Assembly (NCBI GenBank): GCA_029055565.1
Contig: JAIDCZ010000019.1
Span: forward strand, 1 to 36,207
Length of the DNA stretch: 36,207 nucleotides
Reading direction: 5' to 3'
DNA from: Clostridiales bacterium
GTDB taxonomy: Bacteria > Bacillota > Clostridia > Christensenellales > Pumilibacteraceae
Shown here: positions 3-24,044 of the stretch, piece by piece
Layout of the letters: the number at the start of each line of letters is the position of its first letter
How positions within the stretch are numbered: position 1 is the stretch's first letter
Made by a program: the position numbers and the translations under genes
The notes under the pieces: model-generated
Database searches by the model: none
What the model saw: the letters and a program-made list of their open reading frames with translations, nothing else
Told to the model about the DNA's origin: nothing

Positions 3-722
3 GACGAGGAACAAGAGGACGCTCTCCGCAAAGCGGAAGAAGAGGCCGAGGAAGCCAAGCGCAAAGCGGAAGAAGAGGCCGAGGAAGCCAAGCGCAAAGC
101 CCAAGAGGAAATCGAGGAAATGCGCCGTAAGGCCGAGGAAGAGGCGGAAGCCAAGCGTTTGGAAGAAGAAAACAAGCGTGCGGAAGAAGAAGCTCGCCAG
201 AAAGCGGAAGCCGAAAAGGCGGAAACTCTTGCCAAAAAGATCGCGTTGCGTAAGGATCAGATTGTTGCTATCCGCAACGAAATGAAAGAGCTTAAAGGCG
301 ACGAGGACGCCAAGAACCTTCGCGAACGTCTGTACAACTTGCAGCTTACGTTCGACGAGGATGAAAAAGGCTCCACCGAGCTTATGGACTTCTACAATAA
401 GACCATGGACGATATTCAAAACAGCGGTGAGATAGCGCGGTTGAAAGCCGAAAACGCCAAAAAGCCGCAACGCGTCGTCCGCAAGGTTACGGAGCGCGTC
501 AACCGTATAGCCAAGCGCAAACCGGCAAGTGCACGTCCCGGCGCACGTCCCGGCGCAAGACCTATGCGTCCCGGCGCACGTCCCGCAGCGGGAGCACGTC
601 CCGGTGCACGCCCCGCGGCACGTCCCGGTGCAAGACCGGCGGCACGCCCCGGTGCGAGGCCCGGCGCAAGACCGGCGGCACGCCCCGGTGCAAGGCCCGG
701 CGGTCCCAGAAGGCCGCGGTAA
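3..722 (+). CDS. Coiled-coil protein with Arg/Pro/Gly/Ala-rich basic tail, 5' partial
   Basis: The reading frame is open from the left edge, so the start lies outside the window. The visible part opens with an almost pure Lys/Glu/Ala/Arg coiled coil, including two identical 11-residue units (RKAEEEAEEAK) followed by degenerate ones. A mixed helical segment (LRKDQIVAIRNEMKELKG) comes next. The last 65 or so residues are a low-complexity tail built from GARP, RPAA and RPGA units with no acidic residues, so the tail is strongly basic. I do not recognise a family. A basic RPG-type tail could bind nucleic acid or an acidic partner; the next gene encodes a very acidic N-terminus, so a physical pairing is a reasonable guess, not a finding. 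The two genes are co-directional and about 100 bp apart, with no clear terminator between them. Confidence 0.8.
   Translation, partial: DEEQEDALRKAEEEAEEAKRKAEEEAEEAKRKAQEEIEEMRRKAEEEAEAKRLEEENKRAEEEARQKAEAEKAETLAKKIALRKDQIVAIRNEMKELKGDEDAKNLRERLYNLQLTFDEDEKGSTELMDFYNKTMDDIQNSGEIARLKAENAKKPQRVVRKVTERVNRIAKRKPASARPGARPGARPMRPGARPAAGARPGARPAARPGARPAARPGARPGARPAARPGARPGGPRRPR
27..92 (+). repeat. Two exact 33-bp tandem repeats coding an 11-residue coiled-coil unit
   Basis: Positions 27-59 and 60-92 both encode RKAEEEAEEAK. An 11-residue (hendecad) period is typical of long, slightly right-handed coiled coils. Further degenerate units continue to about position 230. Confidence 0.85.
530..718 (+). 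repeat. Low-complexity repeats coding the GARP/RPAA tail
   Basis: Short direct repeats of the type GCACGTCCCGGCGCACGTCC, with RPG, RPA and RPM variants, make up this stretch. Such sequence expands and contracts easily by slippage, so the tail length probably varies between strains. Confidence 0.8.
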
Positions 723-825
723 CGTTCGGCGCGAATAGACCGCAAGCTTTACGACCCAAATGATTCGATTCCGCTAAAGCGGTAGGAATTAGTGCAATTA
801 TAAATAACAAATGCGAGGAACATTT

Positions 826-3800
826 ATGGACAACCAAGACAAGACGACTTTTTCGTTGGACGACGATGAAATCGTAGAGGAAGAAGTTATCGAACGCGAC
901 GAAGAGTACGATGACGGCTACGAGGACGAGGAGTACGACGATTACGACGAGGATTACGGCGACGAGGACTACGGCGACGAGGAGTATGACGATGAGGATT
1001 ACGGCGACGAGGACTACGGCGACGAGGAGTACGACGACGGTTACAACGACGATTACTACGATGACCGTTTGAACAAAGTCCTCGACGAGCTTGCCGAATT
1101 AAAGAGGGGAATGGTACCGGCTACGCAACAACAACAGCAACAGCCCATGCCCATTATGCCGCCTCAGTACATTTACCAACCCACCGCACCGCCCGCCGGC
1201 AGCGAGGTTGTAATGTACAACGAAATATCGCGTTTGCGTGATGAGCTTGCTCGCAATCAGAACAGCTTGGAAATGCAAAAAGAGCTTACGCGTATCAAGG
1301 AAGATATGCAACGCGACCAAAAGTTTGCGGAAGCTCAGTACAACGCGGAGATCCAACGGTTGCAGAGTAAAATCGACGACCTACTAAAAAACGGGTCAAG
1401 CCCTCAAGGTGAACTTCCGGTCGGACAAGAACCGGAGCGCATTGAGGGCGGAAAATCTTCGTTGGACGTAGACAAGCTGCTTTCGATAAACGAGGCGATA
1501 TTGCGCGCCATGCGCGATACCGACGCGCGTGTGCAAAACGAATTGGCCCAGCTGAAAAAGCAGTTGGACGAAATGCCGTCCGTTAAGGAACTTAACGGCG
1601 CGGTTTCGTCTATGAAAAAAGCGGCTAACAGCATGGATACCGGAAATCTTACCAAGCTTTCGAGCGAGATTGCGGCGTTAAAGGCGGCGCTGGAGGGCGC
1701 ACCCATGCCGGTTGCAACCACTGCCGCCGAGCCTATAGTCACTGCAGCTGCTCCCGCTACCGCGGAGGTTGGCGCAGCCGAGCTTTTGCGCCAGCTTTAC
1801 GAAATAAAGACTGTTATCGGCAACGCTTCGCCGGCGGCCGTTAAGCGCGCACAAACGATTTCCGAGCTTGTAAACGACTTCAAAAAAGTTTCATACGATG
1901 TTCACTCGCAATCCGCATCATACAAAGACAAGCTCAACGCCGTGTACGCGTACGTAAAGCGCCTTACGGACTGTAACGAGCCGGACGCTATAGACTTGGT
2001 GCAAGCCACCAATTCGCTTATAGCCGAGCTGGGTGAGCAAACGCTTAACAAGCAGTCGTTCTCGGCCGTGGCAGAGTTCTGCGCCGAGCGCGGCATGACC
2101 ACTATCACGTCGGCCATGCGCGACAGCGCAGATCGCTTCTTTAACCTCGTAAAGAAGATTACCGACGCCAACGTGGAATCGTACGGTGACTACTTGCCCG
2201 ACTTAATTGAGGAAATTAACACACTTCAAGGCAAAAAGTACGAAGCAGAAAACGCCGCAGCCGTAGGCGAGATAACCAAAGAGCTACTCAGCGAACACTG
2301 CGATAAGTCGGCTGTTAAGGAAAAGGTGGAGCGCCTTGTAGAAATAACCGTTGCCGACGTTTTGGATTTGCCCGAGCTTGAACTGCCCAAGGCATACAAG
2401 CCCGCGCACGTCGAAAACGACGAAACGCTGTTTACCAAGCTTGCCGATCTTAAATCGGCGGTTATGGACAGACCGACGCCTACTATCATACCCACTTCGG
2501 AGGACGGCGAGCTGTCGGTTGACGAAGCGGCGTTACAGCAAATACTGTACGCAGTAGACGACCTTAAAAACAAGCTGGAAAGCGCTACCGGCAACAGCGA
2601 CGTGGCCGGTGCGTTGGAGGAGCTTCGCAACAACTATTTGGACATAACCAATCGGCTCGTCGATTTGTCCGAAAGGCTGCAAGAAATGCCTATCGCCGAG
2701 CAAGCGGCGGAAGGCGAGGCAGTCGTTGCTGAAGCACCCGTAGCGGCGGAAAGCTCCACGGCGTCCGAGGAACGTCAGATTATGCTGGACGATCTCGGTT
2801 ATATCCGCGCCAAGCTGGACGATTACGAAACGTTCTTTAACAATCTTTCGGGCTTGCGCTCCGAGCTTAACAATCAAACGCAGACCGGCGTAGGCGCGGA
2901 CGTTACCGCTCCGATTGCCGAGCAAATGACCACGTTGATGTCCGATATTACGGCGCAGTTCGACAAGCTGTACGAGGACGTAACCAACGTTATTATCGAA
3001 TCGGAATCCAACATTCTGGGCAAGATCGGCAACGGCGTAGCGGCCGGCGACCCTTCGGCTTCTGCCGTTACGGTCGATTCCACTGCCACGCTTGACGCCA
3101 TAGAGGCCGCCAAGGCGGACATTCTTGCCGAAACGCAGTACATCAAGGATTCGCTCGTAGGCGTCTCCAACGCTAACGGCGGGTACGACGTAAACGCTAC
3201 GCTCGACGCGATAGAGGCCGCTAAAGCGGACATTCTTGCCGAAACGCAGTACATCAAGGATTCGCTCGTAAACATGTCGGACAACGGCGGCGCATACGAC
3301 GCCAACACCGCGTACGACGCTAACGGCGGATACGACGCTAACGCTACGTTTGACGCTATAGAAAACGCCAGGGCAGATATTCTTGCCGAAACGCAATCGA
3401 TCAAGGAATCGGTTGTCGGCGTGTCCGACGCTATTTTGATGTCGCCGACGGCTGACGCTATCGAACAGCTCCGTGCCGACGTAAACGCGTTTATCGACAC
3501 CGCTTCGGTCAACAGTGAATCGGCCGCGTCCGACAGACAGCGTTTGCTGGACGATATAGCGTTCCTTCGCGAGCAAGCCGAGCTTGCCATTGCCGAGGGC
3601 GACCAGATTCCCGAGGCCGCGGAAGCCGTACAAGACACGGATAAGCTTATCGACTATATGGACGAGATAGCCGCGCGCGTATCGCTGATCAACAACGTCG
3701 CAGACGACGCCGCCGCTACCAAGGAAGCCGTTAATACGGTAGGCGAAAGCGTAACCGCTTTGTCGGACAACGTTGCCACCGTGTCGGACGCGCTCAACGC

Positions 3801-6800
3801 CGTTACGGACAGCGTTGCCGCCGCAAGCGACAGCATTGCCGCAATCAACGATAACTTCGTTGCCGTCAACGACAACTTTGCAGTAATCAACGACAACGTA
3901 AACGCTATGGGCGACAACGTTGCGGCCGCACGCGACGCGGCAACTTCTGCGCTCGACGCGCTCGCGCCCATAACCGAGCAGTTGAACGTTATACTGGAAA
4001 AACTTGACGCGCCGGTTGCGGAAACCGAACAGCATTACGACGAAAACGATACCGCCGCAGACGAGCTTGCAGTTATCCGCGACAACCTCAACGCCATACT
4101 CGACACGCTTACGCTTATGCCGCAGTCGGACGACGTTGTGGTCACGCGCGACAACACGCTTGCCACGCTCGACGCGCTTGCCGCAATGCCGCAAGCCGAG
4201 GACGTTGCGGTTATTCGCGACAACGTAAGCGCGGTGCTCGAATCGGTAAACGCGCTTTCCGAGCGCATATCCGCTATTGCGGAAACGCCGGTCGACAACC
4301 AGCCGGTTATCGACGAGGTATCGTCGCTCCGCGAAGCGATTGACGGCACTGCCGAGGACGTTAAGCTTTTGATTGAAAAGCTCGACCTCAGCGAGCAGTA
4401 CGCCGCTACCGATAAGCAAGAGATTATCGACGCGGTAAACGCGATTAAAGAAGAAATCCACATTAACACGCTGGACGAGAACATGTCCGCGTCCGGCATA
4501 GACGGCGAGACCCGCGAAGCGCTTTTGGGCGAGATAGCCGAAATACGCGAGCGCTTGGGTAATATCGAAAGCGCTACACAGTCTGCCAACGACGTAAGCG
4601 TTGCGGCAATCGACCAGATTTCCGCACAGCTTGCCGACTTGCAAGCGGTGCTGGAATCGCGTCTCACCGAGGAACAGACCGAGGACGCCGACCAAGCCCA
4701 GCTTGACGCGGACAACATGCAAGCGCTCATTTCCGAGCTTTCGTCCATCAAGGAAAAACTCGACGCGTCGTCCGAGTACGACACCGTGGAGGAGATACTG
4801 TCCTTGCGCGAGGACATTAAGGCCGCGCGCATAGTCGATCAGGACGAGGTTTCGGGCGAGCTGGAATCTATCAAGAACGAGCTTGCCGCCATATCCTCGG
4901 GTAACATACTGGACGAGATTCGCGCACTCCGCGAGGATATTGCCAATCTGCCCGTAGGCGACGACGGCGGTTCGGAAGCTACCGACGGCGAAATCAACCT
5001 CGTGCTCAACGAAATCGTGTCGTTGCGCGACGAAGTGTTTGCCTTTAAGGACGAGGTGCTTAACGCTACCGGCGTTGCGGAACCTCAAACCGAACCGACC
5101 GAACGCGTTGCGCAAAGCTCCGACGATATGTTCAGCGTACTTGACGAGCTGTCCGCACTGCGCGCCGACCAGACCGCGCTTAGCGAAAATATTGACGAGC
5201 TTAAAGACCTTGTCAGCCGCAGAGCAACCGTTGCAAGCGGCGACGAGGAAGGCGGAGCTCCGGTTCAGACCGAGGTGTCCAACGCCGACGAGCTTAACAT
5301 AGTACTTGACGAAATAATCAACCTCAAGAGCGACATAGATAGGATAGAGGAGAGCTTGGGCGGCGACAGACTTAACGCTATTGCCGAGCAAGTGGAGGAC
5401 ATCCGCGCCGTTCTTGACGAATTGAGAAACAGCGCTGCAACGCACACCGAAGCGACGACCGAGGCGACGACAGAGGGCGAAGGATACAATCCCGAATACG
5501 CCGCGTCGGTCACAGCAGAGGTAGACCTCACGCCGGTGCTTGAACAGCTTGACGCCGTAAATGCGGCTTTGGAAGAAATTAAGCTGGTGCAAGAAGCTAC
5601 CGTCGCCGAGGAAACGGGCGAGACTACCGGCACGCTGTCCGAACGCTTTGACGAGCTTTCGGCGGAAATGACGGAAATCAAGACCGTTATCGCCAATATG
5701 TCGCCCATAGATTACGCGGCGGAATTGGCGGAAATGCGCGCCGAAATCGAAGCGCTCCGCGCCGAGAACGCGCAGTTAAAGACGGACAATGCCGACGTAC
5801 TTGCCGTCCAGATCGACGAGATTAAAGAGCTTATACGCGAAATACCGGTACCCGAAACGACGACGTATGAAACGCCGGTTGTCGCGGCGGATAACAGCAA
5901 CGAAATGTTTGCAACGCTTATCGACGAGATACGCGGACTTAAGGAACAAGTGGCGGCCGTACAGACTGTGGCGCCGGTGCAAGCAGCTGCCGGACTTGAC
6001 GAGCAAGCGTTGCAAGAAATTCGCGACATGCTTGCCGCGCAAGCCGATCAAGGCGCTATGGCAAGCGAGCTTGGTGAGATACGCGACGAAATAGCTCAGC
6101 TCCGTTCGCTCACCACCGTAGCGGCGGAAAGCGGCGGCAACGTAGAGGTTCAGTCGCTTAGGGACGAGCTGGAAGCTATCAAGGCTATGCTCGCTTCGCC
6201 CGACAGCCTTATGGGCGTTGCTGAGGACGTAACGGCTATAAAGGCGGACGTTCAGACCTTGAAGGAGGAACCCGACCTCGGCGTTATGAGCGAAATTTTG
6301 GCTCTGCGCGACGAGTTCCAAGCTCTGCGCGAGCAGATAGAGGACGTAAAGCATATTGCCGAACGGACGGACAGCGAGTCGGACGATACGATTATAAACG
6401 AACTCCAGTCGCTCCGCGACCAAGTTGCGGCGGCCGGCTCGGACGACGCTATTATGACCGAAATCCAATCGCTGCGCGATCAGTTGTTTGCTATCAGCAT
6501 GGCCAACGTAAACGATCCCGCTTCCGGCCAGTCCAATTACGAAAGCTACAACAATATCATTCTAGACGAGATTGCGTCGCTTCGCGACCAAGTTGCGGCG
6601 GCCGGCTCGGCTCGGGATATAGAAATCGTTTCCGACGAGTTTGCCAAGCTGAAAGCGGCTATCGACAAGCGTGAGGCTATGGTCGAGGCGCTTGCTGACA
6701 GAGTGGCGGCGCTCGGCAACGACGCAACCAACAACAAGATTTTGGAAGAGCTTGCCGTACTGCGCACCGATATGGCCAACCAGCGCGACGCCGACCTTAC

Positions 6801-7866
6801 CACGCTCAACTTTATGTCGGAAATGGCGCACCTTTTGGAACGTCAAAACCAGTACCTTACGCAAAACGCCGGCACCAAGATTACCGACGAGATTGAAAGC
6901 CTTAAGGCTGAAATTGCGTCCAGCGACGCCGTGGCGGAAGAGGTTGCCAAGCTGCGCGAGGTCATGGTGCAATCGGGCAACGCCTCCGACAACGATACCA
7001 TTCTTGCCGAGCTTGCCGAGCTTAGGGAAGAGCTTAGCAAGGAGAAACCCAGCCAAGAAAACGCGCTTATACTCGACGCTATAGCACGGCTTCGCGACGA
7101 AATAACGACGCTTGCCGAACGCGAAAGAGTGCGCGACCTCAACGCCGACGCCGACCTTTCCGATTCGCTTTCCGACTTGAAGGAACAGCTTAACGAAATA
7201 GCCGGAATTATGGAACCCAATCAGTCCATACAGCGCGCACAGCCGGTCCAACCCGAGCAACCCTCTAAACCGGCGCAGTCCGCTCAGCCCGCGCAGTCCG
7301 TTCAATCGGCTCAGCCCGAAAAGAAACAGACCGCAAGCAACGCAAACGGCGGCAAAAAGCGCGGCAGAAAACCCGGCCACAAGAATTCCACTAAAGCGGG
7401 CGGCACGAGTAGTACCGCAAGCAACGCGAACGGCGCCAAAAAGCGCGGCAGAAAACCCGCTGCGCAAAAGCCCGCGCAAACCGAACCGGAAGTAGAGGAA
7501 GTAGTTATCAACACTCCCGCACCAGCAAGGGACGACTTTGACGCGCTGATCGATCGTCAAGCCGGTATGCTCGGCGGCGACGGCGATATGTCGCTCAATC
7601 CCACTGTAACTGTCGACACTATGGACGTAGCCGATAGGCTTGCCAAGCAAGTGGCCAACAAGCTGATAATGGAACAGCTTGTGGAACAGTTGGGCGACGG
7701 CGGCGTAAGCGAGGATAGGGTGGACGAAATTCTGCGCGACATACTGCCGCACGAATTCAACACCATAGCGGAAACGGAAGCGTCCGATAAGGTTCGTAGG
7801 CTTGCCAACCAGCTCGTACTTAACAAGCTCCGCGCAAGGCTCAACGGCAACAGAGATGACGACTAA
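826..7866 (+). CDS. Giant repetitive coiled-coil protein with acidic head and AT-hook-like motifs (2346 aa), unknown function
   Basis: I chose the ATG at 826 because GAGGA at 815-819 is well placed before it; an in-frame ATG at 811 lacks a ribosome site. Residues 15-80 are extremely acidic and rich in Asp, Tyr and Gly (DEDYGDEEYDD units). A Gln/Pro linker follows. Residues 110-2110 are predicted coiled coil with no membrane segment or signal peptide. About 28 degenerate copies of a motif like LDEIxSLRDxV are scattered through it, and residues 975-1044 are ten uninterrupted heptads. A Gln/Pro/Ala/Ser linker precedes two KKRGRKP motifs (residues 2177-2183 and 2205-2211) that resemble AT-hooks, minor-groove DNA-binding motifs. 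The last 100 residues form a helical region with two related segments (DRLAKQVANKL and DKVRRLANQLV). A role as a nucleoid-associated or cytoskeletal scaffold is inference only. A terminator follows directly. Confidence 0.85.
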   Translation: MDNQDKTTFSLDDDEIVEEEVIERDEEYDDGYEDEEYDDYDEDYGDEDYGDEEYDDEDYGDEDYGDEEYDDGYNDDYYDDRLNKVLDELAELKRGMVPATQQQQQQPMPIMPPQYIYQPTAPPAGSEVVMYNEISRLRDELARNQNSLEMQKELTRIKEDMQRDQKFAEAQYNAEIQRLQSKIDDLLKNGSSPQGELPVGQEPERIEGGKSSLDVDKLLSINEAILRAMRDTDARVQNELAQLKKQLDEMPSVKELNGAVSSMKKAANSMDTGNLTKLSSEIAALKAALEGAPMPVATTAAEPIVTAAAPATAEVGAAELLRQLYEIKTVIGNASPAAVKRAQTISELVNDFKKVSYDVHSQSASYKDKLNAVYAYVKRLTDCNEPDAIDLVQATNSLIAELGEQTLNKQSFSAVAEFCAERGMTTITSAMRDSADRFFNLVKKITDANVESYGDYLPDLIEEINTLQGKKYEAENAAAVGEITKELLSEHCDKSAVKEKVERLVEITVADVLDLPELELPKAYKPAHVENDETLFTKLADLKSAVMDRPTPTIIPTSEDGELSVDEAALQQILYAVDDLKNKLESATGNSDVAGALEELRNNYLDITNRLVDLSERLQEMPIAEQAAEGEAVVAEAPVAAESSTASEERQIMLDDLGYIRAKLDDYETFFNNLSGLRSELNNQTQTGVGADVTAPIAEQMTTLMSDITAQFDKLYEDVTNVIIESESNILGKIGNGVAAGDPSASAVTVDSTATLDAIEAAKADILAETQYIKDSLVGVSNANGGYDVNATLDAIEAAKADILAETQYIKDSLVNMSDNGGAYDANTAYDANGGYDANATFDAIENARADILAETQSIKESVVGVSDAILMSPTADAIEQLRADVNAFIDTASVNSESAASDRQRLLDDIAFLREQAELAIAEGDQIPEAAEAVQDTDKLIDYMDEIAARVSLINNVADDAAATKEAVNTVGESVTALSDNVATVSDALNAVTDSVAAASDSIAAINDNFVAVNDNFAVINDNVNAMGDNVAAARDAATSALDALAPITEQLNVILEKLDAPVAETEQHYDENDTAADELAVIRDNLNAILDTLTLMPQSDDVVVTRDNTLATLDALAAMPQAEDVAVIRDNVSAVLESVNALSERISAIAETPVDNQPVIDEVSSLREAIDGTAEDVKLLIEKLDLSEQYAATDKQEIIDAVNAIKEEIHINTLDENMSASGIDGETREALLGEIAEIRERLGNIESATQSANDVSVAAIDQISAQLADLQAVLESRLTEEQTEDADQAQLDADNMQALISELSSIKEKLDASSEYDTVEEILSLREDIKAARIVDQDEVSGELESIKNELAAISSGNILDEIRALREDIANLPVGDDGGSEATDGEINLVLNEIVSLRDEVFAFKDEVLNATGVAEPQTEPTERVAQSSDDMFSVLDELSALRADQTALSENIDELKDLVSRRATVASGDEEGGAPVQTEVSNADELNIVLDEIINLKSDIDRIEESLGGDRLNAIAEQVEDIRAVLDELRNSAATHTEATTEATTEGEGYNPEYAASVTAEVDLTPVLEQLDAVNAALEEIKLVQEATVAEETGETTGTLSERFDELSAEMTEIKTVIANMSPIDYAAELAEMRAEIEALRAENAQLKTDNADVLAVQIDEIKELIREIPVPETTTYETPVVAADNSNEMFATLIDEIRGLKEQVAAVQTVAPVQAAAGLDEQALQEIRDMLAAQADQGAMASELGEIRDEIAQLRSLTTVAAESGGNVEVQSLRDELEAIKAMLASPDSLMGVAEDVTAIKADVQTLKEEPDLGVMSEILALRDEFQALREQIEDVKHIAERTDSESDDTIINELQSLRDQVAAAGSDDAIMTEIQSLRDQLFAISMANVNDPASGQSNYESYNNIILDEIASLRDQVAAAGSARDIEIVSDEFAKLKAAIDKREAMVEALADRVAALGNDATNNKILEELAVLRTDMANQRDADLTTLNFMSEMAHLLERQNQYLTQNAGTKITDEIESLKAEIASSDAVAEEVAKLREVMVQSGNASDNDTILAELAELREELSKEKPSQENALILDAIARLRDEITTLAERERVRDLNADADLSDSLSDLKEQLNEIAGIMEPNQSIQRAQPVQPEQPSKPAQSAQPAQSVQSAQPEKKQTASNANGGKKRGRKPGHKNSTKAGGTSSTASNANGAKKRGRKPAAQKPAQTEPEVEEVVINTPAPARDDFDALIDRQAGMLGGDGDMSLNPTVTVDTMDVADRLAKQVANKLIMEQLVEQLGDGGVSEDRVDEILRDILPHEFNTIAETEASDKVRRLANQLVLNKLRARLNGNRDDD
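952..1041 (+). repeat. 45-bp tandem duplication in the acidic head
   Basis: Positions 952-996 and 997-1041 are nearly identical copies encoding DYGDEDYGDEEYDD(E/D). They differ only near the 3' end, which points to recent duplication. Confidence 0.85.
3088..3432 (+). repeat. Three in-gene repeats encoding TLDAIEAAKADILAETQ units
   Basis: Units start at 3088, 3199 and 3346. The first two share long blocks of identical DNA, including the codons for ADILAETQYIKDSLV; the third has diverged. A smaller YDAN repeat sits at the end of unit two. Confidence 0.85.
3748..3957 (+). repeat. Ten consecutive 21-bp heptad units ending in Asp
   Basis: Ten successive seven-residue units read SVTALSD, NVATVSD, ALNAVTD, SVAAASD, SIAAIND, NFVAVND, NFAVIND, NVNAMGD, NVAAARD, AATSALD. 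Every unit ends in Asp and has hydrophobic residues at positions 2 and 5. Confidence 0.85.
7330..7458 (+). repeat. Duplicated AT-hook-like module
   Basis: Two 45-bp copies (7330-7374 and 7414-7458) lie 84 bp apart. Each encodes TASNANG(G/A)KKRGRKP. The conserved basic core matches the AT-hook core in spirit, with RGRKP rather than the classical RGRP. Confidence 0.8.
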
Positions 7867-10396: not shown

Positions 10397-11653
10397 ATGC
10401 AAAAACTTATAGTACAAGGCGGGATACCGCTCGGCGGGGAGATTTCCGTTCAGACAGCCAAGAACGCGGCACTCCCTATAATAGCGGCGTGTATCTTGAC
10501 GGAGGAACCTATCGTCATAGAAAAGTGTCCGCACTTAAAGGACATTGACGCTATGATAAATATTATGCGGCATTTGGGGTGTAGCGCGCAATTTTTCGGC
10601 GACAATCTGCACGTTTGCTGTCGCGACGTGTCGTTAAACGTCATAAACGCCGATCTGACGGGTAAACTGCGCTCGTCCATATTTATACTGGGGTCAATCC
10701 TTTCGCGGTGCAGAAAGGCGTACATAAGCCATCCCGGGGGATGCGAGATAGGTTTACGACCCATAGATTTACATATTTCGGGACTGAAAGGATTGTCCGT
10801 AAAAATAGAGGACGACGGCGGCGTTATATGCTGTGACGGCGGCGATATGAAAAGCGGAGTGATAAACCTCGACTTCGCGTCAGTCGGCGCGACCGAAAAC
10901 CTTATGATGGCGGGTGCGCTATTGGACGGCGAAACGGTTATAGTCAACGCCGCGCGCGAGCCGGAGATAGTGGACCTTGCAAACTTTATCAACGCAATGG
11001 GCGGCGACGTGTCGGGCGCGGGCGGATCTATCATTCGCGTGCGGGGCGTGAAAAAGCTTCACGGCTGTACGTATAAGCCGATGCCGGACAGAATTTGCGC
11101 CGGAACCTTTCTTGCGGCGGTGGCGGCTACCGGTGGGTGCGCAACCGTTAAGGACGTAGTGCCCGAGCATTTGTTCGGCATTACCGAGCGGCTTAAAAAG
11201 ACCGGCGCCAAGCTGACCGTGCGCGGCAGTACTGTGCGCATTTGCGCCGACGGCAGACCCAAGGCCATACATAAACTGGAAACCAACGTTTACCCAGCGT
11301 TCCCGACCGATATGCAACCGCAGTTTTGCGCAATGCTGGCGCGTGCCGTCGGCAGTTCGGTTATAGTGGAAAACTTGTTTGAAAATCGGTTCGGCTATAC
11401 GACCGAGCTTATTAAGATGGGCGCCAACGTAACCGTTAAGGACAGAATTGCCGTGGTTGCGGGCGTGCCTAATTTACACGGCGCGGCAGTTAAGGCGTGC
11501 GACCTTCGCGGCGGTGCGGCGCTCGTTATTGCGGCGCTTGCGGCCGAAGGCAAGACCGAAATTTTCGGCACCGAACACATAGACCGCGGTTATGAAAGCA
11601 TAGAGCAGTCGTTTGCGGCGCTTGGGGGAAGGATTGAGAGAATTCAGAATTAA
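10397..11653 (+). CDS. murA: UDP-N-acetylglucosamine 1-carboxyvinyltransferase
   Basis: MurA catalyses the first committed step of peptidoglycan synthesis, moving enolpyruvate from PEP to UDP-GlcNAc in the cytoplasm. Residues K22 and N23 (TAKNAALP), the loop cysteine C116 in HPGGCEIGLRPIDLHISGL, D305 in FPTDMQPQ, and the DLRGGAALVIAALAAEG block near the end are all present. The cysteine is the residue that fosfomycin alkylates in the family, so the enzyme should be of the sensitive type. Length (418 aa) is normal. GAGGA precedes the ATG. It stands directly upstream of the ftsQ-like gene, as in many Clostridia. The last codons (IQN) and the stop lie inside a dispersed repeat, so the C-terminus may have been altered by its insertion. 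Confidence 0.96.
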   Translation: MQKLIVQGGIPLGGEISVQTAKNAALPIIAACILTEEPIVIEKCPHLKDIDAMINIMRHLGCSAQFFGDNLHVCCRDVSLNVINADLTGKLRSSIFILGSILSRCRKAYISHPGGCEIGLRPIDLHISGLKGLSVKIEDDGGVICCDGGDMKSGVINLDFASVGATENLMMAGALLDGETVIVNAAREPEIVDLANFINAMGGDVSGAGGSIIRVRGVKKLHGCTYKPMPDRICAGTFLAAVAATGGCATVKDVVPEHLFGITERLKKTGAKLTVRGSTVRICADGRPKAIHKLETNVYPAFPTDMQPQFCAMLARAVGSSVIVENLFENRFGYTTELIKMGANVTVKDRIAVVAGVPNLHGAAVKACDLRGGAALVIAALAAEGKTEIFGTEHIDRGYESIEQSFAALGGRIERIQN

Positions 11654-11667
11654 GAATTATGAATGCA
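11640..11667. repeat. Dispersed GAATTAAGAATT-family repeat, copy 2, overlapping the murA stop
   Basis: GAATTCAGAATTAAGAATTA and following bases. The TAA of murA lies in it. Between this copy and the next (11668-11732) there is a stretch (GATTCCTCATTGCGTTCGGA) that resembles a decayed REP-type repeat. Confidence 0.7.
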
Positions 11668-11732
11668 AAATGTAGCAGCGTTCGCGGCATTAAGGTTGAG
11701 ATTCCTCATTGCGTTCGGAATGACAAAATAAA

Positions 11733-11782
11733 ATGCAGAATTAAGAATTAAGAATGAACGTATAATTCCGAATTCCGAATTT
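11733..11782. repeat. Dispersed GAATTAAGAATT-family repeat, copy 3
   Basis: GCAGAATTAAGAATTAAGAA followed by AATTCCGAATTCCGAATT. It ends just before the promoter of the ftsQ-like gene. Confidence 0.7.
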
Positions 11783-11793
11783 GCTAATAATAC

Positions 11794-11822
11794 TTGCATT
11801 TTATAATATAGTTTGTTATACT
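11794..11822 (+). promoter_or_regulatory. Sigma-A promoter for the ftsQ-like gene
   Basis: TTGCAT (11794-11799), a 17-nt spacer and TATACT (11817-11822). The ATG lies only 8 nt after the -10, so the mRNA would be leaderless. A second possible -10 (TATAAT, 11802-11807) with a poorer -35 could give a longer leader. Confidence 0.65.
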
Positions 11823-11830
11823 TACTATGT

Positions 11831-12700
11831 ATGCGTAACAAAAAGCTGATTACATTGTTAATAGTGGTGTTGGTGCTGGTGATATTGGCTATCATTTGCG
11901 GCGCTACTTTTATCGTTAGGCATGTGGACGCGTACAGCTACTACGACAATCTGCTGATAGAGGAGTACGACAAAAAAATCGTATCCGCGTCGGGCGTTAG
12001 TAAAAACGGTTCAATGTTTTTCGTCGACGAAGCGGCGGTTAAGTCTAAGGTGGAAAAGGCCTTCCCCGACGTAGAGGTTATAAACGTTAAGCGCAGTTTC
12101 CCCGACAGAGTTACCATTAACTACGTTATTTACGAAAAATCGTTCCAGTACCAAAACGGCGACAAGTATTACCAATGCTATTCGTCGGGTAGGATAGGCA
12201 GCGCGTCGGACGTCAAGTCGGCGGGGTATTTTACGATCAAGCCGTCGTCGGCAACGTCCACTACCGTCGGCAGTTACTTCCAGTCCGGGGACGGAAGGGA
12301 CAGACGGTACGTCGACGCCATAATCAAGTTTTTGCGTTCCAAAGGTTTGATAGATTTTCAAATCAACCAGTTTATCAACTTTATAGATTTTCGCCGCAAC
12401 GGCTACGTGTACATTCGCACCAATGCCGGCTGTTCCATAGAGATCCACGACAACGGCGGCGCGGACTTTAACGCTATGCTCGAGCGCGGTTTTGCCGTGT
12501 ACTCCAAAATGGATCCACAGCTTACCGATATAAGGCAAACACAAGGACTTATAAAGGTTTATCCCAACCTCAGCCAAGGCGCTGACGATCCGGTGCGTTG
12601 CGTGTATCTTAGACCACTTCAAGACGAATATGATAACAAGGTTTACACCGACGAGGGGTATTACACTCGGCATTACGAGGACGTAGCGCAAGGCGCGTAA
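11831..12700 (+). CDS. ftsQ: Cell division protein FtsQ/DivIB-like (289 aa)
   Basis: FtsQ/DivIB is a bitopic divisome protein whose extracytoplasmic POTRA domain links early and late division proteins. Here a short basic N-terminus (MRNKK) is followed by one membrane helix at residues 6-31. A POTRA-like segment comes next (about residues 50-105) with the pattern FFVDEAAVKSKVEKAFP...VKRSFPDRVTINYVIYEKS. A beta-rich extracellular domain follows. Identity is low, so the assignment rests on topology, the POTRA pattern and the position just before ftsA-ftsZ. The ATG at 11831 has no Shine-Dalgarno; an in-frame TTG at 11813 has none either and overlaps the -10 box. Confidence 0.8.
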   Translation: MRNKKLITLLIVVLVLVILAIICGATFIVRHVDAYSYYDNLLIEEYDKKIVSASGVSKNGSMFFVDEAAVKSKVEKAFPDVEVINVKRSFPDRVTINYVIYEKSFQYQNGDKYYQCYSSGRIGSASDVKSAGYFTIKPSSATSTTVGSYFQSGDGRDRRYVDAIIKFLRSKGLIDFQINQFINFIDFRRNGYVYIRTNAGCSIEIHDNGGADFNAMLERGFAVYSKMDPQLTDIRQTQGLIKVYPNLSQGADDPVRCVYLRPLQDEYDNKVYTDEGYYTRHYEDVAQGA

Positions 12701-12723
12701 TTCAACTATTTTCAGCCGTACAC

Positions 12724-12752
12724 TTGACAACCATACTATGGTAGTGTATAAT
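12724..12752 (+). promoter_or_regulatory. Consensus sigma-A promoter for ftsA-ftsZ with a palindrome in the spacer
   Basis: TTGACA (12724-12729), a 17-nt spacer and TATAAT (12747-12752), an exact consensus. The spacer contains the perfect palindrome ACCATA-C-TATGGT (12730-12742), a candidate operator. Confidence 0.9.
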
Positions 12753-12783
12753 TTCAATCATAGATAGTATTAGGGGTAATGTC

Positions 12784-13995
12784 TTGAAACAAAGCGTTGC
12801 AATTCTGGATTTAGGCACGAGCAAGATAACCGTGTTGATCGGTAGCCGAGGCATAAACAATACGATAAACCTTGACGGAGTCGGGGTTTGCGAGTATGCC
12901 GGTTATTCGTGTGGGCAATGGTTGGACGGCGAAAGATTGTCGCACTGCATCGGACAAGCTATTTCGAGTGCGCAGTCTCGCGCGCGGCAAAAAATAGACA
13001 AGCTGTACGTAGGCGTGCCCAACGAATTTTCGCAGTGCCATGTCGTTGACGTAGGCATTTCGCTCAACAAAAAGCGCAGAGTTACCGAAAAGGACGTTCA
13101 AGCACTTTTGGACAGCGGCAACACCTTTGCCGACCCGACGAGAACGGTTGTCAATATGCAACCCATATACTACACGCTGGACAACTCGCACAAGCTGATA
13201 GAGCCGGTGGATATGACGTCCACCAAGCTTAACGGCAGTATTTCGTACATACTTGCGAGAAACGACTTTATAGAGGATATTACCGCCGCGGCGGGAATGG
13301 CGGAAATTGATAACGTAGAATTCCTTTCCGCGTCGCTTGCGGAGCTGATGTTGTTGTTTGACGACTTCCGTCGTGATAAATGCGTAATGCTGGCGGACGT
13401 AGGTGCGCTGGGCACTGCGCTGACCATAGGTAGGGGCGACGGCATTTGCGTGCAAAAATACTTTGCTTGGGGCGGTAGACGTATTACCGATGCGCTTGCG
13501 GAAAAGTTCGATATTCCGTATAAGTTAGCCGAACAGCTAAAGCGCAAGGTTATTCTGTCGCTCGAGCCGGACTTCGTTCCGCCGCCCGACGAGGCGGAGC
13601 CGCCAGTGGTTCAGACCGAATACGAGCTGGAAGTGGGTGGCGAGATTAGGCGCTTTGACGTTGCGGAAACCAACCTTACGGTGCGGCTGGAAATAGAACA
13701 GCTTGCGCGGTATATCAAAAAAGCGCTAAAGCAATGCAACTACGATTATCCGGAATATATACCGCTGTCCGTAACCGGCGGAGGCATTATTCCCATGCGC
13801 GGGGCAATAGAGTATTTGTCCGAATGCCTTGCGCACGATACCGAAGCGGTCAAGCCGTCCCAGCCTATGCTGGACAGTGCACCGTTGTCGTCCGCGCTCG
13901 GCATACTTAATATGGTACTGCTTAGCAATCCGGTAGACGACGGAGTGATAAAAAGATTTAAACGTTGGTTTTCCAAACGTAAACAAAAGGAGTGA
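12784..13995 (+). CDS. ftsA: Cell division protein FtsA
   Basis: FtsA is an actin-like ATPase that tethers FtsZ filaments to the membrane. The opening VAILDLGTSKITVLIG is the phosphate-1 motif; VMLADVGALGTALTIGRGDG corresponds to phosphate-2, and LSVTGGGIIPMRGAIEYLS to the adenosine region. The C-terminus ends in a basic amphipathic helix (GVIKRFKRWFSKRKQKE), as expected for the membrane-targeting sequence. At 403 aa it is slightly shorter than usual and diverged. The start is a TTG at 12784 with AGGGG 7 nt upstream; the nearby ATG at 12779 runs into a stop. FtsZ follows 5 bp later, its ribosome site lying within the end of ftsA. Confidence 0.92.
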   Translation: MKQSVAILDLGTSKITVLIGSRGINNTINLDGVGVCEYAGYSCGQWLDGERLSHCIGQAISSAQSRARQKIDKLYVGVPNEFSQCHVVDVGISLNKKRRVTEKDVQALLDSGNTFADPTRTVVNMQPIYYTLDNSHKLIEPVDMTSTKLNGSISYILARNDFIEDITAAAGMAEIDNVEFLSASLAELMLLFDDFRRDKCVMLADVGALGTALTIGRGDGICVQKYFAWGGRRITDALAEKFDIPYKLAEQLKRKVILSLEPDFVPPPDEAEPPVVQTEYELEVGGEIRRFDVAETNLTVRLEIEQLARYIKKALKQCNYDYPEYIPLSVTGGGIIPMRGAIEYLSECLAHDTEAVKPSQPMLDSAPLSSALGILNMVLLSNPVDDGVIKRFKRWFSKRKQKE

Positions 13996-14000
13996 TAGAT

Positions 14001-15221
14001 ATGGTAGATTCGCAATACGGTACGAATTTTCAGGACGACGATTCCGGTTCGCCCGTTAAAGTAATGATAGTAGGCGTCGGCGGCGGCGGCAGTAACGCCG
14101 TTGACAATATGATTGAGGCGCAAGTGAAAGTCAACGTTTTCATGGCTATCAACACCGACAAGCAAGCGCTTCGCATATCCAAGGCCACGCGCAGAGTGCA
14201 AATCGGGTCCAACATAACCAAGGGCTACGGCGCGGGCGCAAACCCCGAAAAGGGTAGGCTTGCCGCCGAGGAATGCCGCGAAACGCTGACCAAGCTTATA
14301 AAGGACATCGACTTGGTGTTTATTACCGCCGGCATGGGCGGCGGTACCGGCACCGGTGCGGCGCCAGTAATTGCGGAGATAGCGCACAACCTCGACAAGC
14401 TGGTCGTGGCGTTTGTTACCACGCCGTTCAAGTTTGAGGGCGAGGTGCGTATGCGCAACGCGCAAGCGGGCATTACCGAACTGCGCAAGTGGGTCGATTC
14501 CATAATAATCGTGCCCAACGAGCGGCTTGCTTCGGTTGCCAAGGACTTGACCACGCAAGAAGCCTTCAAGTACGCCGACGACATTTTGCGCCAAGGCGTT
14601 CAAGCATTGACAGATATTATAGTCAACCCCGGCAAAATCAACGTCGACTTTGCTGATATACATACCATACTCGAGGACGGCGGCGACGCAATTATGGCCA
14701 TAGGCCGTGCAAGCGGCGCCAACCGCGCCGTGGAGGCCGTTAAGCGCGCCGTAAACAATACCGTGCTTGATACTTCCATCGAAGGCGCTACCCGCGCTAT
14801 AGTCCAAGTCGAGGGTAGGGAAGTGAAAATGAACGAGGTGTCGCAAGCCGTAGAGCTCGTGCGCGACATTTGCGCCAAGGAGGCGAATATCGTTTTCGGC
14901 CACGCAATCGTTCCCGAGCTTAAGGATCAGCTTCAAGTCACAATTATCGCAACAGGCTTTAACCGCGGTGCCGGCGCGCCTCAAGCGCAACAGCAACAAG
15001 CCGTGCCGCAACCGCCGGTGCAGCCTATACCGCCGCGCCAAACTCAGCAGCCCATACCGCCGCAACAGCCGGTACAGCCGCGCCAGCCGCAAGGCAACGT
15101 TCCGCCGTTATTTTCCCAGCAGTACAGACAACAGCCGCAACGGCCGGTAGACGACGGCTACGTGAGCATGGACGACGACAGCGAGCAGTCGTGGCTTGAT
15201 AAGCTCAAAAAACGCCGTTAA
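14001..15221 (+). CDS. ftsZ: Cell division protein FtsZ
   Basis: FtsZ is the tubulin-like GTPase that forms the division ring. The tubulin signature GMGGGTGTG is at residues 111-119, the N-terminal GVGGGGSNAVDNMIE loop is intact, and the T7-loop region is present. After the GTPase core comes a Gln/Pro-rich linker of about 60 residues and a short tail (EQSWLDKLKKRR) that lacks the usual DIPPFLR-type FtsA-binding core, so binding to the diverged FtsA here may use a different tail motif. The ATG at 14001 is chosen because AAAGGAG (13986-13992) is 8 nt upstream; a GTG at 13992 overlaps that site. Confidence 0.97.
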   Translation: MVDSQYGTNFQDDDSGSPVKVMIVGVGGGGSNAVDNMIEAQVKVNVFMAINTDKQALRISKATRRVQIGSNITKGYGAGANPEKGRLAAEECRETLTKLIKDIDLVFITAGMGGGTGTGAAPVIAEIAHNLDKLVVAFVTTPFKFEGEVRMRNAQAGITELRKWVDSIIIVPNERLASVAKDLTTQEAFKYADDILRQGVQALTDIIVNPGKINVDFADIHTILEDGGDAIMAIGRASGANRAVEAVKRAVNNTVLDTSIEGATRAIVQVEGREVKMNEVSQAVELVRDICAKEANIVFGHAIVPELKDQLQVTIIATGFNRGAGAPQAQQQQAVPQPPVQPIPPRQTQQPIPPQQPVQPRQPQGNVPPLFSQQYRQQPQRPVDDGYVSMDDDSEQSWLDKLKKRR

Positions 15222-22385: not shown

Positions 22386-24044
22386 ATGATAGGCAAAGAC
22401 GTAAAAGGCGAGGCAAGAAAAAAGCTCGCGCTTAATATGCACCAAGCGATTATCGTATACACGGTAATGTTTACGATATTCATTACGCTTATAGCGTTGG
22501 TGGTTATGTCGTGCGTAAGTCTGGGCGCGGCGGTTAGTAAAATTGCCGCTATCGTCATGATTTGCTACGGCTCGATATTGCTTATTATAGCCATAGTCGG
22601 CGCGGGCATGATCAACTTTGCAATGACCGACTTTTACTTGGTGTCGTACAAATGCCAGCCGTACAACGTGCGGCGACTGGGCGAAACCATTGCGCGTAGC
22701 AACATAACCAAGGTATTGCTTATGAGCTTTAAGCGCACGATTATAGCGCTTTTGCTTTTGCTCTGCCTTATCGTCCCCGGTGTGATATATTTAATGCGCA
22801 CGTCAATGGCGTCGTATCTGTTGATAGCCAATCCCAAAATGAAACCGACCTCGGCCCTTACTGCGTCGAGCAAGGTAATGAGCGGCAAGACCGGCACGTA
22901 CTTTACGCTGTGCATGTCGCTTATGGGCTGGTACGTTTTGGGCGTAGCAACGCTTGGACTGGGATTTATATTTATAGCGCCGTATATCAATCTGGTAAAG
23001 ACGGTGTTTTACAAGCGCAACCTCCAAGGCGACAAGGGTGTGTACATGGTGTCCGCGCAAGCGCTGGCCTCGATGCCGGCAACCATGGCGCCGCAACAAG
23101 GCCAAGCTATGCAACAACAAGCCATGGCCAACGCACAGTACGCAGCGCAACAACAGCCGGCCGGCCCGGCGCCAATCGACGCCTTGGCCGACGAGGACGT
23201 TATGGACATGCACGCCGCAATACAAGACTTTGGCGGTGAGGTAGGCGAAAATCAAGCGTTCGTATCGAGCGTAGACGCCGTGCCGGAAGTTCCGCTTGCC
23301 GCGCCCAGCGGCAAAAAAGCCGATAAGGGCAAGTCTAAACTGGCGCGTGAGGAAAAGCGCGCGGCCAAGGAAGCAGCCAAGGAAGCGGCCAAGCGCGACG
23401 AGCACATGCACAAGATAGACGGTACCGGACTGGTGGAAACCGAGCGCACGCTCACCACGCAAGAGCTTGCCGATTCCGACGTGCTTCGCCGTAGCGAATT
23501 GGACCATATGTATTCCAACGCCGAGCGCAAGCGTTCAGCCGTCAATTACTTTGACAACTTGGTCACCAACGGCAACGACGACGAGTTTGACGACTTTGGT
23601 GTAACGCCGATCGACGCGGAGCCGATTGCCGAGCCTATTGTAGAGCCTATTATCGAACCGATAGTCGCAGAGCCGATGGCAAACGGCTTTGGCCAAGCGG
23701 GATTTGACGCGTTTAGCGGGGACGATCCGGCGGGCGAGCCGGTTATGAGCGAAAGCGAGCTTGACGAGTTTTTGCGCAACTTCGACGACGCGATAGAGCA
23801 AGACGAGCAACCGGCTAAAGTCGAACCGTTAAAAACCGAGCGATCGACAAATAATAGCAATAGAGCGGCGCAGAGCGCAATTGATAGACGAAAAGCGGCA
23901 GAGGAGCGCATAGAACGCGACCGTCGCGCAGCCGTCGAACGATTGGCAAACCGTCGTCCCTCGTCACCGCAGTCTATTGAACGCGCCGAGCGCATACGTC
24001 GTGAGCGCGAGGAACGCTTAAAAAAACAAAATCAAAAGAAGTAA
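22386..24044 (+). CDS. DUF975-like integral membrane protein with long hydrophilic tail (552 aa)
   Basis: The first 220 residues carry the DUF975 pattern: a charged amphipathic opening (KGEARKKLALNMHQAI), then about five membrane helices, the block TSMASYLLIANPKMKPTSAL and a late GWYVLGVATLGLGFIFIAPY. DUF975 proteins have no established function. Unlike typical members (200-250 aa) this one continues for 330 residues: a Gln/Ala/Met-rich segment, a Lys/Ala helix (EEKRAAKEAAKEAAKRDEHM), an acidic Pro/Ile/Glu repeat (EPIAEPIVEPIIEPIVAEP) and an Arg/Glu-rich last helix. No ribosome site precedes the ATG, consistent with a leaderless mRNA. The next gene follows 17 bp later. Confidence 0.8.
   Translation: MIGKDVKGEARKKLALNMHQAIIVYTVMFTIFITLIALVVMSCVSLGAAVSKIAAIVMICYGSILLIIAIVGAGMINFAMTDFYLVSYKCQPYNVRRLGETIARSNITKVLLMSFKRTIIALLLLLCLIVPGVIYLMRTSMASYLLIANPKMKPTSALTASSKVMSGKTGTYFTLCMSLMGWYVLGVATLGLGFIFIAPYINLVKTVFYKRNLQGDKGVYMVSAQALASMPATMAPQQGQAMQQQAMANAQYAAQQQPAGPAPIDALADEDVMDMHAAIQDFGGEVGENQAFVSSVDAVPEVPLAAPSGKKADKGKSKLAREEKRAAKEAAKEAAKRDEHMHKIDGTGLVETERTLTTQELADSDVLRRSELDHMYSNAERKRSAVNYFDNLVTNGNDDEFDDFGVTPIDAEPIAEPIVEPIIEPIVAEPMANGFGQAGFDAFSGDDPAGEPVMSESELDEFLRNFDDAIEQDEQPAKVEPLKTERSTNNSNRAAQSAIDRRKAAEERIERDRRAAVERLANRRPSSPQSIERAERIRREREERLKKQNQKK

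Follow-up and report, generated by a model that had tools for sequence, protein, structure and literature searches.

Links of the integrin-talin type, or of the linker of nucleoskeleton and cytoskeleton (LINC) type, combine in eukaryotes an ectodomain, a membrane pass, a cytosolic tail and a long cytosolic linker. The attachment organelle of Mycoplasma pneumoniae brings together surface adhesins, the coiled-coil protein HMW2 (1818 residues, with 11 predicted coiled-coil regions) and HMW1, which has an aromatic-glycine-enriched part (PMC4959525). Here we describe a locus of three giant genes, A, B and C, of which the end of B and the whole of C open a 36207-base stretch of DNA, the whole of contig G000:C11 (hereafter the window). 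We see an even chance that A-B-C is a surface-anchored structural scaffold of the cell envelope, in which a basic tail of B would dock on an acidic head of C. The Mycoplasma attachment organelle is nearest to it in layout, with no homology seen: the likeness lies in surface proteins, in low-complexity segments and in a long coiled-coil protein of comparable size inside the cell (PMC4959525). The organism and the gene order are, however, unrelated, and none of the attachment-organelle families came up in the Pfam and NCBIfam scans, no direct sequence comparison having been made. Mycoplasma, moreover, has no cell wall, and we know of no charge-paired basic tail in its attachment organelle. With the integrin-talin and LINC links A-B-C shares the layout only; there is no homology, and its docking would use low-complexity charge pairing. 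A search of the literature on Anaerocaecibacter, Borkfalkia, Pumilibacter, Pumilibacteraceae, nucleoid tethers and RCC1/AT-hook/Christensenellales found no description of the locus, most subscription journals lying outside its coverage.

The original prediction was of a two-gene locus coding for proteins free of membrane segments and signal peptides. Two frames are indeed present in the window, but the upstream one (3-722) has no start codon because the contig begins inside gene B, and the locus is one of three genes once this cut is recognized. In Anaerocaecibacter muris (A. muris; in Pumilibacteraceae, Clostridia, by NCBI taxonomy, presumably the family f1 surveyed below) and other relatives, the Arg/Pro/Gly/Ala (RPGA) tail that closes this frame is the end of a protein B of ~1700 residues, whose predicted layout runs from a signal peptide and an ectodomain through a single transmembrane helix to a cytosolic rod of ~1080 residues and the RPGA tail. 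It is preceded there by the giant gene A (~1750-2030 residues), for which a signal peptide, RCC1 repeats, a transmembrane helix and a short cytosolic tail of ~155-230 residues are predicted. The absence of membrane segments therefore holds for C and fails for B, whose signal-peptide-like and transmembrane-like segments had been lost to view with the cut. In the genome of the window, most of B lies on contig G000:C2 (4605 bases; 1512 residues, matching A. muris B residues 11-1500) and ends there in the same kind of repeat that opens the window, and A lies on contig G000:C15, where a 300-residue membrane-protein-like frame, not serC, lies within the 1.5 kb readable upstream of it. The assembly break falls in near-identical 33-base repeats coding for the B ER/K helix (window 27-191; end of G000:C2).

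For gene C, the open reading frame (ORF) at 811-7866 codes for 2351 residues. Since a GAGGA ribosome-site-like stretch stands 5' of the ATG at 826, we take the start there, which gives the 2346 residues originally read. The all-basic end of the upstream frame, the acidic head of C (nearly all Asp/Glu/Tyr/Gly, its most acidic 60 residues having a net charge of -39) and the two KKRGRKP motifs, at residues 2182 and 2210, were likewise found as predicted. The features of the window are as follows.

3-722, plus strand: 3' end of gene B, its last 239 residues, with charged single-helix-like ER/K repeats, a conserved pre-tail domain and the RPGA tail; frame open at the left end
195-515, plus strand: conserved pre-tail domain of B (IRNEMKELK...LTFDEDE...VVRKVTERVNRI), from alignment
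516-719, plus strand: basic Arg/Pro/Gly/Ala tail of B; by the charge measure, the most basic 60 residues, starting just ahead of the tail, carry +18
826-7866, plus strand: gene C, 2346 residues, a giant helical/coiled-coil protein without membrane segment; ORF opens at 811, its product having a net charge of -289
856-1080, plus strand: acidic Asp/Glu/Tyr/Gly head of C, from composition and charge window
1756-2568, plus strand: conserved N-terminal globular part of C, from conservation and prediction; a helical bundle by AlphaFold2
6442-6699, plus strand: the most widely shared module of C (LRDQLFAISMANV...YESYNNIILDEI; YESYNN module), from profile comparison; it also forms the core of the g18 mini-C proteins
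7354-7374, plus strand: first KKRGRKP AT-hook-like motif, seen in the window's genus only
7438-7458, plus strand: second KKRGRKP AT-hook-like motif, seen in the window's genus only
7606-7863, plus strand: C-terminal domain of C, with 57-71% identity to members from other genera in the alignment
10397-15221, plus strand: murA, ftsQ, ftsA, ftsZ, then spoIIGA and sigE, from neighbour reading; a genomic anchor outside the system (the murA and fts names are presumptive, from the sequence, and consistent across relatives)

All full-length A and B proteins tabulated share a hydrophobic stretch at the N terminus and a single strong one farther in, which lies at 1552-1840 in A and near residue 600-650 in B (689-692 in those B frames that open early). 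In C no 19-residue hydrophobicity mean exceeds 1.8, three C proteins touching 1.63-1.77. From this order of segments, read by hydrophobicity and the usual signal-peptide logic without a trained predictor, the first ~560 residues of B and the first ~1500-1800 of A are predicted to lie outside the cell, and the ~1080-residue rod of B with its RPGA tail inside. The predicted outer part of A. muris A matches the RCC1 families PF13540 (54.9 bits, cutoff 22) and PF00415 (30.1 bits, cutoff 21.7), and PF13540 also exceeds its cutoff in A of three further genera. Unlike described RCC1-repeat proteins, however, A is a membrane protein of 1750-2030 residues with a further ectodomain and a cytosolic tail, and gives no sign of a chromatin role. 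No family library searched gave a match to B or C, or to A beyond these repeats. A motif like LGFDPYxP is common to B proteins with and without ectodomain (24 of 26, G029 and G103 being without), and SGSGxxS occurs in 20 of the 26. Directly upstream of the A gene, G035 has a second, smaller protein (472 aa; L200 9070-10488), probably secreted, with a short match to A.

The description of C as mostly coiled coil stands only as a heptad-range periodicity above shuffles (z 1.9-4.9, in blocks of residues 90-2130); residues ~340-520 are predicted instead as a compact helical bundle. The AlphaFold2 model of the N-terminal part has a mean predicted local distance difference test score (pLDDT) of 75.6, with blocks of 76-91 over model residues 41-200, and no structural neighbour of the bundle stands out. 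By sequence, nothing informative in the PDB matched the C-terminal domain. C resembles SMC and other bacterial coiled-coil proteins in a weak match to TIGR02168, but at 31 bits it falls far below the cutoff of 567, the matched stretch (576-1112) lies in the coiled-coil part, and no Pfam ATPase was found.

This topology would also suit an apparatus for adhesion or signalling, in which the ectodomains of A and B bind host mucus or other cells and C forms only a stiff or clustering base, as in the layout of the Mycoplasma attachment organelle. We regard this alternative as possible, if on the unlikely side. A. muris is of gut origin, the ectodomains are large and changeable (the first part of B is only 22-47% identical to A. 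muris B), A has RCC1 repeats above the Pfam cutoffs, and its ratio of nonsynonymous to synonymous substitution rates (dN/dS) is the highest of the three genes in one comparison with G004, at 0.15, a rough value since dS is near or above 1.2. The Pfam and NCBIfam scans, on the other hand, found no adhesin domain, and B and C persist in genera in which B has no ectodomain and no A is seen.

The docking proposed for the scaffold draws on the charges of B and C. For each of 22 B-C pairs, net charge was taken over windows of 60 residues: the most negative value near the start of C for the head, and the most positive within the final 150 residues of B for the tail. The tail carries +15 or more in 15 pairs, all with a head of -25 or less, and +10 or less in the other seven, all with a head of -16 or more, the cut-offs (+15/+10 and -25/-16) having been drawn after the values were seen. 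Tail and head charge are correlated (Spearman -0.86), and phylogenetic contrasts on a GyrB tree give r = -0.88 with 20 tips, G029 and G090 having been added to the pair set while absent from the tree; the sign-flip p is 0.036 because about three large contrasts carry the signal. The set leaves out G004, G002 and G013 (g1) and G088 (g2), each of which combines a basic tail with an acidic head in an earlier table, and the B-less G072 (head -25 by the earlier measure). That table (24 pairs; Spearman -0.64, lineage means -0.85) was replaced because its motif-placed head failed in G022 and others, and a Fisher test on the 15/7 split was set aside because it ignores relatedness.

Among 418 background ORFs of 200 or more residues without BLAST match to A, B or C, none reaches -25 in any 60-residue window, whereas 11 have a basic 60-residue stretch of +15 or more; the acidic head is therefore the rarer feature, a tail by itself being nothing unusual. 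Purifying selection acts on the genes: dN/dS comes to 0.12-0.13 for C (three comparisons, that with G007 rough for its dS near or above 1.2), to a lower 0.04-0.07 for the C head on 73-76 codons, and to 0.11 for B, for which, as for A, one comparison was made. In addition, free-standing acidic-head proteins lie between B and C in G094 (179 aa; L198 309-848) and G035 (206 aa; L046 12063-12683). Together, the covariation, the rarity against background, the low dN/dS of the head and the head-only proteins speak for an interaction between head and tail as functional parts, short of proving contact. The charge match put forward in the original prediction has thus gained adjacency and a joint change of tail basicity and head acidity, while binding and a condensate remain conjecture.

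As for distribution, a whole-C search matched 30 of 61 genomes, that is, 30 of the 37 in the family and none of the 24 from other families. Of 74 genomes of the family, 56 matched the YESYNN module, spread over 11 of the 18 genera sampled. Three further genera have C by other evidence (g17, g12 and g11, the last weak, at the same locus), which brings the genera with some form of C to 14, one of them weakly. No C was seen beside serC in g9 and g14, nor within the 2.6 kb readable in g7, and g3 gave no serC match. G093 (genus g14) has, ~1.1 kb from serC on the C side, a 133-residue coiled-coil-like ORF that might be a mini-C (L186 2287-2688). A, B and C are consecutive, in the same direction and on one contig in 24 genomes of seven genera (g1, g2, g4, g5, g10, g15 and g17), a count that includes some cut at stretch or contig ends, two with runs of N in B, and G035 and G094, in which B and C are separated by a small head-only gene. 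The usual gene order is serC, A B C, murA ftsQ ftsA ftsZ. The adjacency that the original prediction had proposed to check is seen throughout: B and C adjoin wherever both are readable on one contig, save for the intervening head-only gene just mentioned, and the genes stay together in G022, G024 and G035, where the locus is away from serC/murA.

Reduced forms of the locus also exist. In genera g16, g12 and g13, as in genomes G022 and G024, C is accompanied by a B that lacks a large ectodomain but has a membrane anchor at its N terminus, and no A was seen there; the C-terminal domain is missing from some forms of C (G034, G024 and genus g8). In genus g18 the position of C is taken by mini-C proteins of 112-129 residues with a YESYNN-like core (L085 10019-10387; L087 7053-7442; L183 1372-1710). 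Family f19 has a C relative of ~1200 residues (1207; complete in two genomes, cut in one) between serC and murA, without B or A (L138 8371-11994; L139 1682-5305; L140 2-3514), and the C locus may therefore be older than the family. These relatives are weak in the YESYNN profile (E 0.001-0.006) and were accepted on BLAST E values of 4e-16 to 2e-11, obtained with the low-complexity filter on and of a kind that coiled coils inflate, together with shared motifs and the same place.

Further afield, G103 (family f31) has a diverged B-C pair, a B of 1172 aa with an RPGA tail and a C of 1775 aa with a D/Y/F/G head, the C-terminal domain scoring E = 5.8e-8 before inclusion in the profile; that the pair keeps both tail and head would count in favour of the scaffold. 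The pair is followed on one strand by an 1842-residue zinc-ribbon-like/coiled-coil/membrane protein and lies beside phage terminase, portal and major head genes (L079 774-15378; L143, G103:C12). The setting may reflect a prophage insertion beside the locus or phage carriage, which this one genome of its family does not distinguish. The C-terminal profile matched one of 391 genomes class-wide, the window's own, and 20 of 396 order-wide at E <= 0.01; G176 and G352, from other families (E 0.006-0.008), were taken as chance matches, G352 after inspection of the ORF and G176 without. The YESYNN profile matched 23 of 248 at E <= 0.01, and its weak matches in families f6, f29 and f17 look unrelated. 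A 954-residue ORF beside serC in family f15 (L188) is an unconvincing relative (E 0.061 in direct comparison).

Several points weigh against a scaffold held together by this docking. Besides the cut-offs chosen after the fact, the few contrasts behind the covariation, the basic stretches found in the background and the manner in which the topology was read, the seven C proteins with no B seen have heads of -14 to -26, a middling charge. C is acidic as a whole, so that the tail could bind elsewhere on it, or could have RNA, DNA or the head groups of phospholipids as its target. Six of the seven loci read in genus g8 have serC immediately next to C (983-1134 residues), the contig of G026 starting at C, and G068 has C alone (837 residues in an open frame, with serC directly upstream). 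As C occurs in these genomes and in family f19 without B beside it, it must do something without B, and this role of its own is perhaps linked to the nearby division genes. Nor is the locus essential across the family, since some relatives are without it: in G027 only 220 bp separate serC and murA, and the whole locus is absent.

Head and tail might, on the other hand, not bind each other at all and be independent low-complexity expansions that grow with protein size, which strikes us as doubtful. The largest heads and tails do occur where the proteins are largest, and head charges of -18 to -26 persist in six of the seven C proteins with no B seen. G024 (g6) and G103, however, have both head and tail with no B ectodomain and no A shown, and a low dN/dS of the head and head-only proteins next to B are not what such expansions would lead one to expect.

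Based on topology features, gene order, conservation and covariation, we propose that A, with its RCC1-repeat ectodomain, and B, with its ectodomain of ~560 residues, would both be anchored in the cell membrane and expose large parts at the surface. The rod of B would extend into the cytoplasm, where a multitude of weak interactions, between charges and between Arg and Tyr, would dock its basic RPGA tail on the acidic Asp/Tyr head of C, possibly in the form of a condensate. C itself would run through the cytosol as a long scaffold and engage further partners by its globular N-terminal bundle, its YESYNN module and its C-terminal domain. Through this assembly, something bound outside the cell would be coupled to the scaffold within. 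Cell shape, polarity or division are conceivable purposes, which would accord with the usual place of the locus near ftsQAZ. It is worth noting that about 1% of these small genomes codes for the three giant proteins. Should the docking prove real, bacteria would here be using low-complexity segments of matched charge to join a membrane protein to an internal scaffold, with gains and losses in nature available for study. Location and binding can be tested in a named strain, A. muris CLA-AA-M11, since it has all three genes.

The suggestion that the AT-hook-like motifs hold DNA was not upheld. KRGRKP occurs in 15 of the 17 genus members in which the C-terminal part was examined (the exceptions being G017 and G018), some of them with cut ends, and in none of 12 genomes outside the genus, two of which are cut before that part; the window C and the listed relatives have no GRP core, and no Pfam AT-hook match was found. 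As the motifs are seen in one genus only, DNA binding by C is possible but unsupported. A nucleoid tether, in which the basic linker of C and its C-terminal domain hold DNA and A-B-C anchors the chromosome to the envelope, is accordingly unlikely in our view: members of g15, g10, g5, g17 and g4 do have a Lys/Ser-rich stretch at the place of the two motifs of the window, and the C-terminal domain is strongly conserved, but that domain has no informative sequence match in the PDB, forms of C without it exist, and C carries a net charge of -289. Quite improbable, too, is a broader version, a trans-envelope linker of the integrin-talin or LINC kind made from unrelated parts, in which surface receptors A and B, a membrane-spanning rod with an Arg-rich tail co-condensing with an Asp/Tyr head, and a giant cytosolic scaffold that also holds DNA in the window's genus would couple surface, division site and nucleoid.

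Lastly, a phage or defence element finds support in one genome, G103, where the B-C pair stands beside phage head genes, but is highly improbable: PHROGs gave no family for A. muris A and B, window C or the G103 pair, PADLOC gave only a weak match of the B membrane-segment region to a CARF-TM model (E 0.0028), viral contigs matched by pattern yielded no confirmed relative, and the place in most loci read, as in family f19, is chromosomal, between serC and murA.

Between C and murA, the window has two small frames followed by two GNAT acetyltransferases. The second small frame 3' of C resembles a membrane protein and has a zinc-ribbon match that stays under the curated cutoff. Farther along, at 22386-24044, lies a 552-residue membrane-protein-like ORF with a DUF975 match at residues 53-211 and ~340 further residues.

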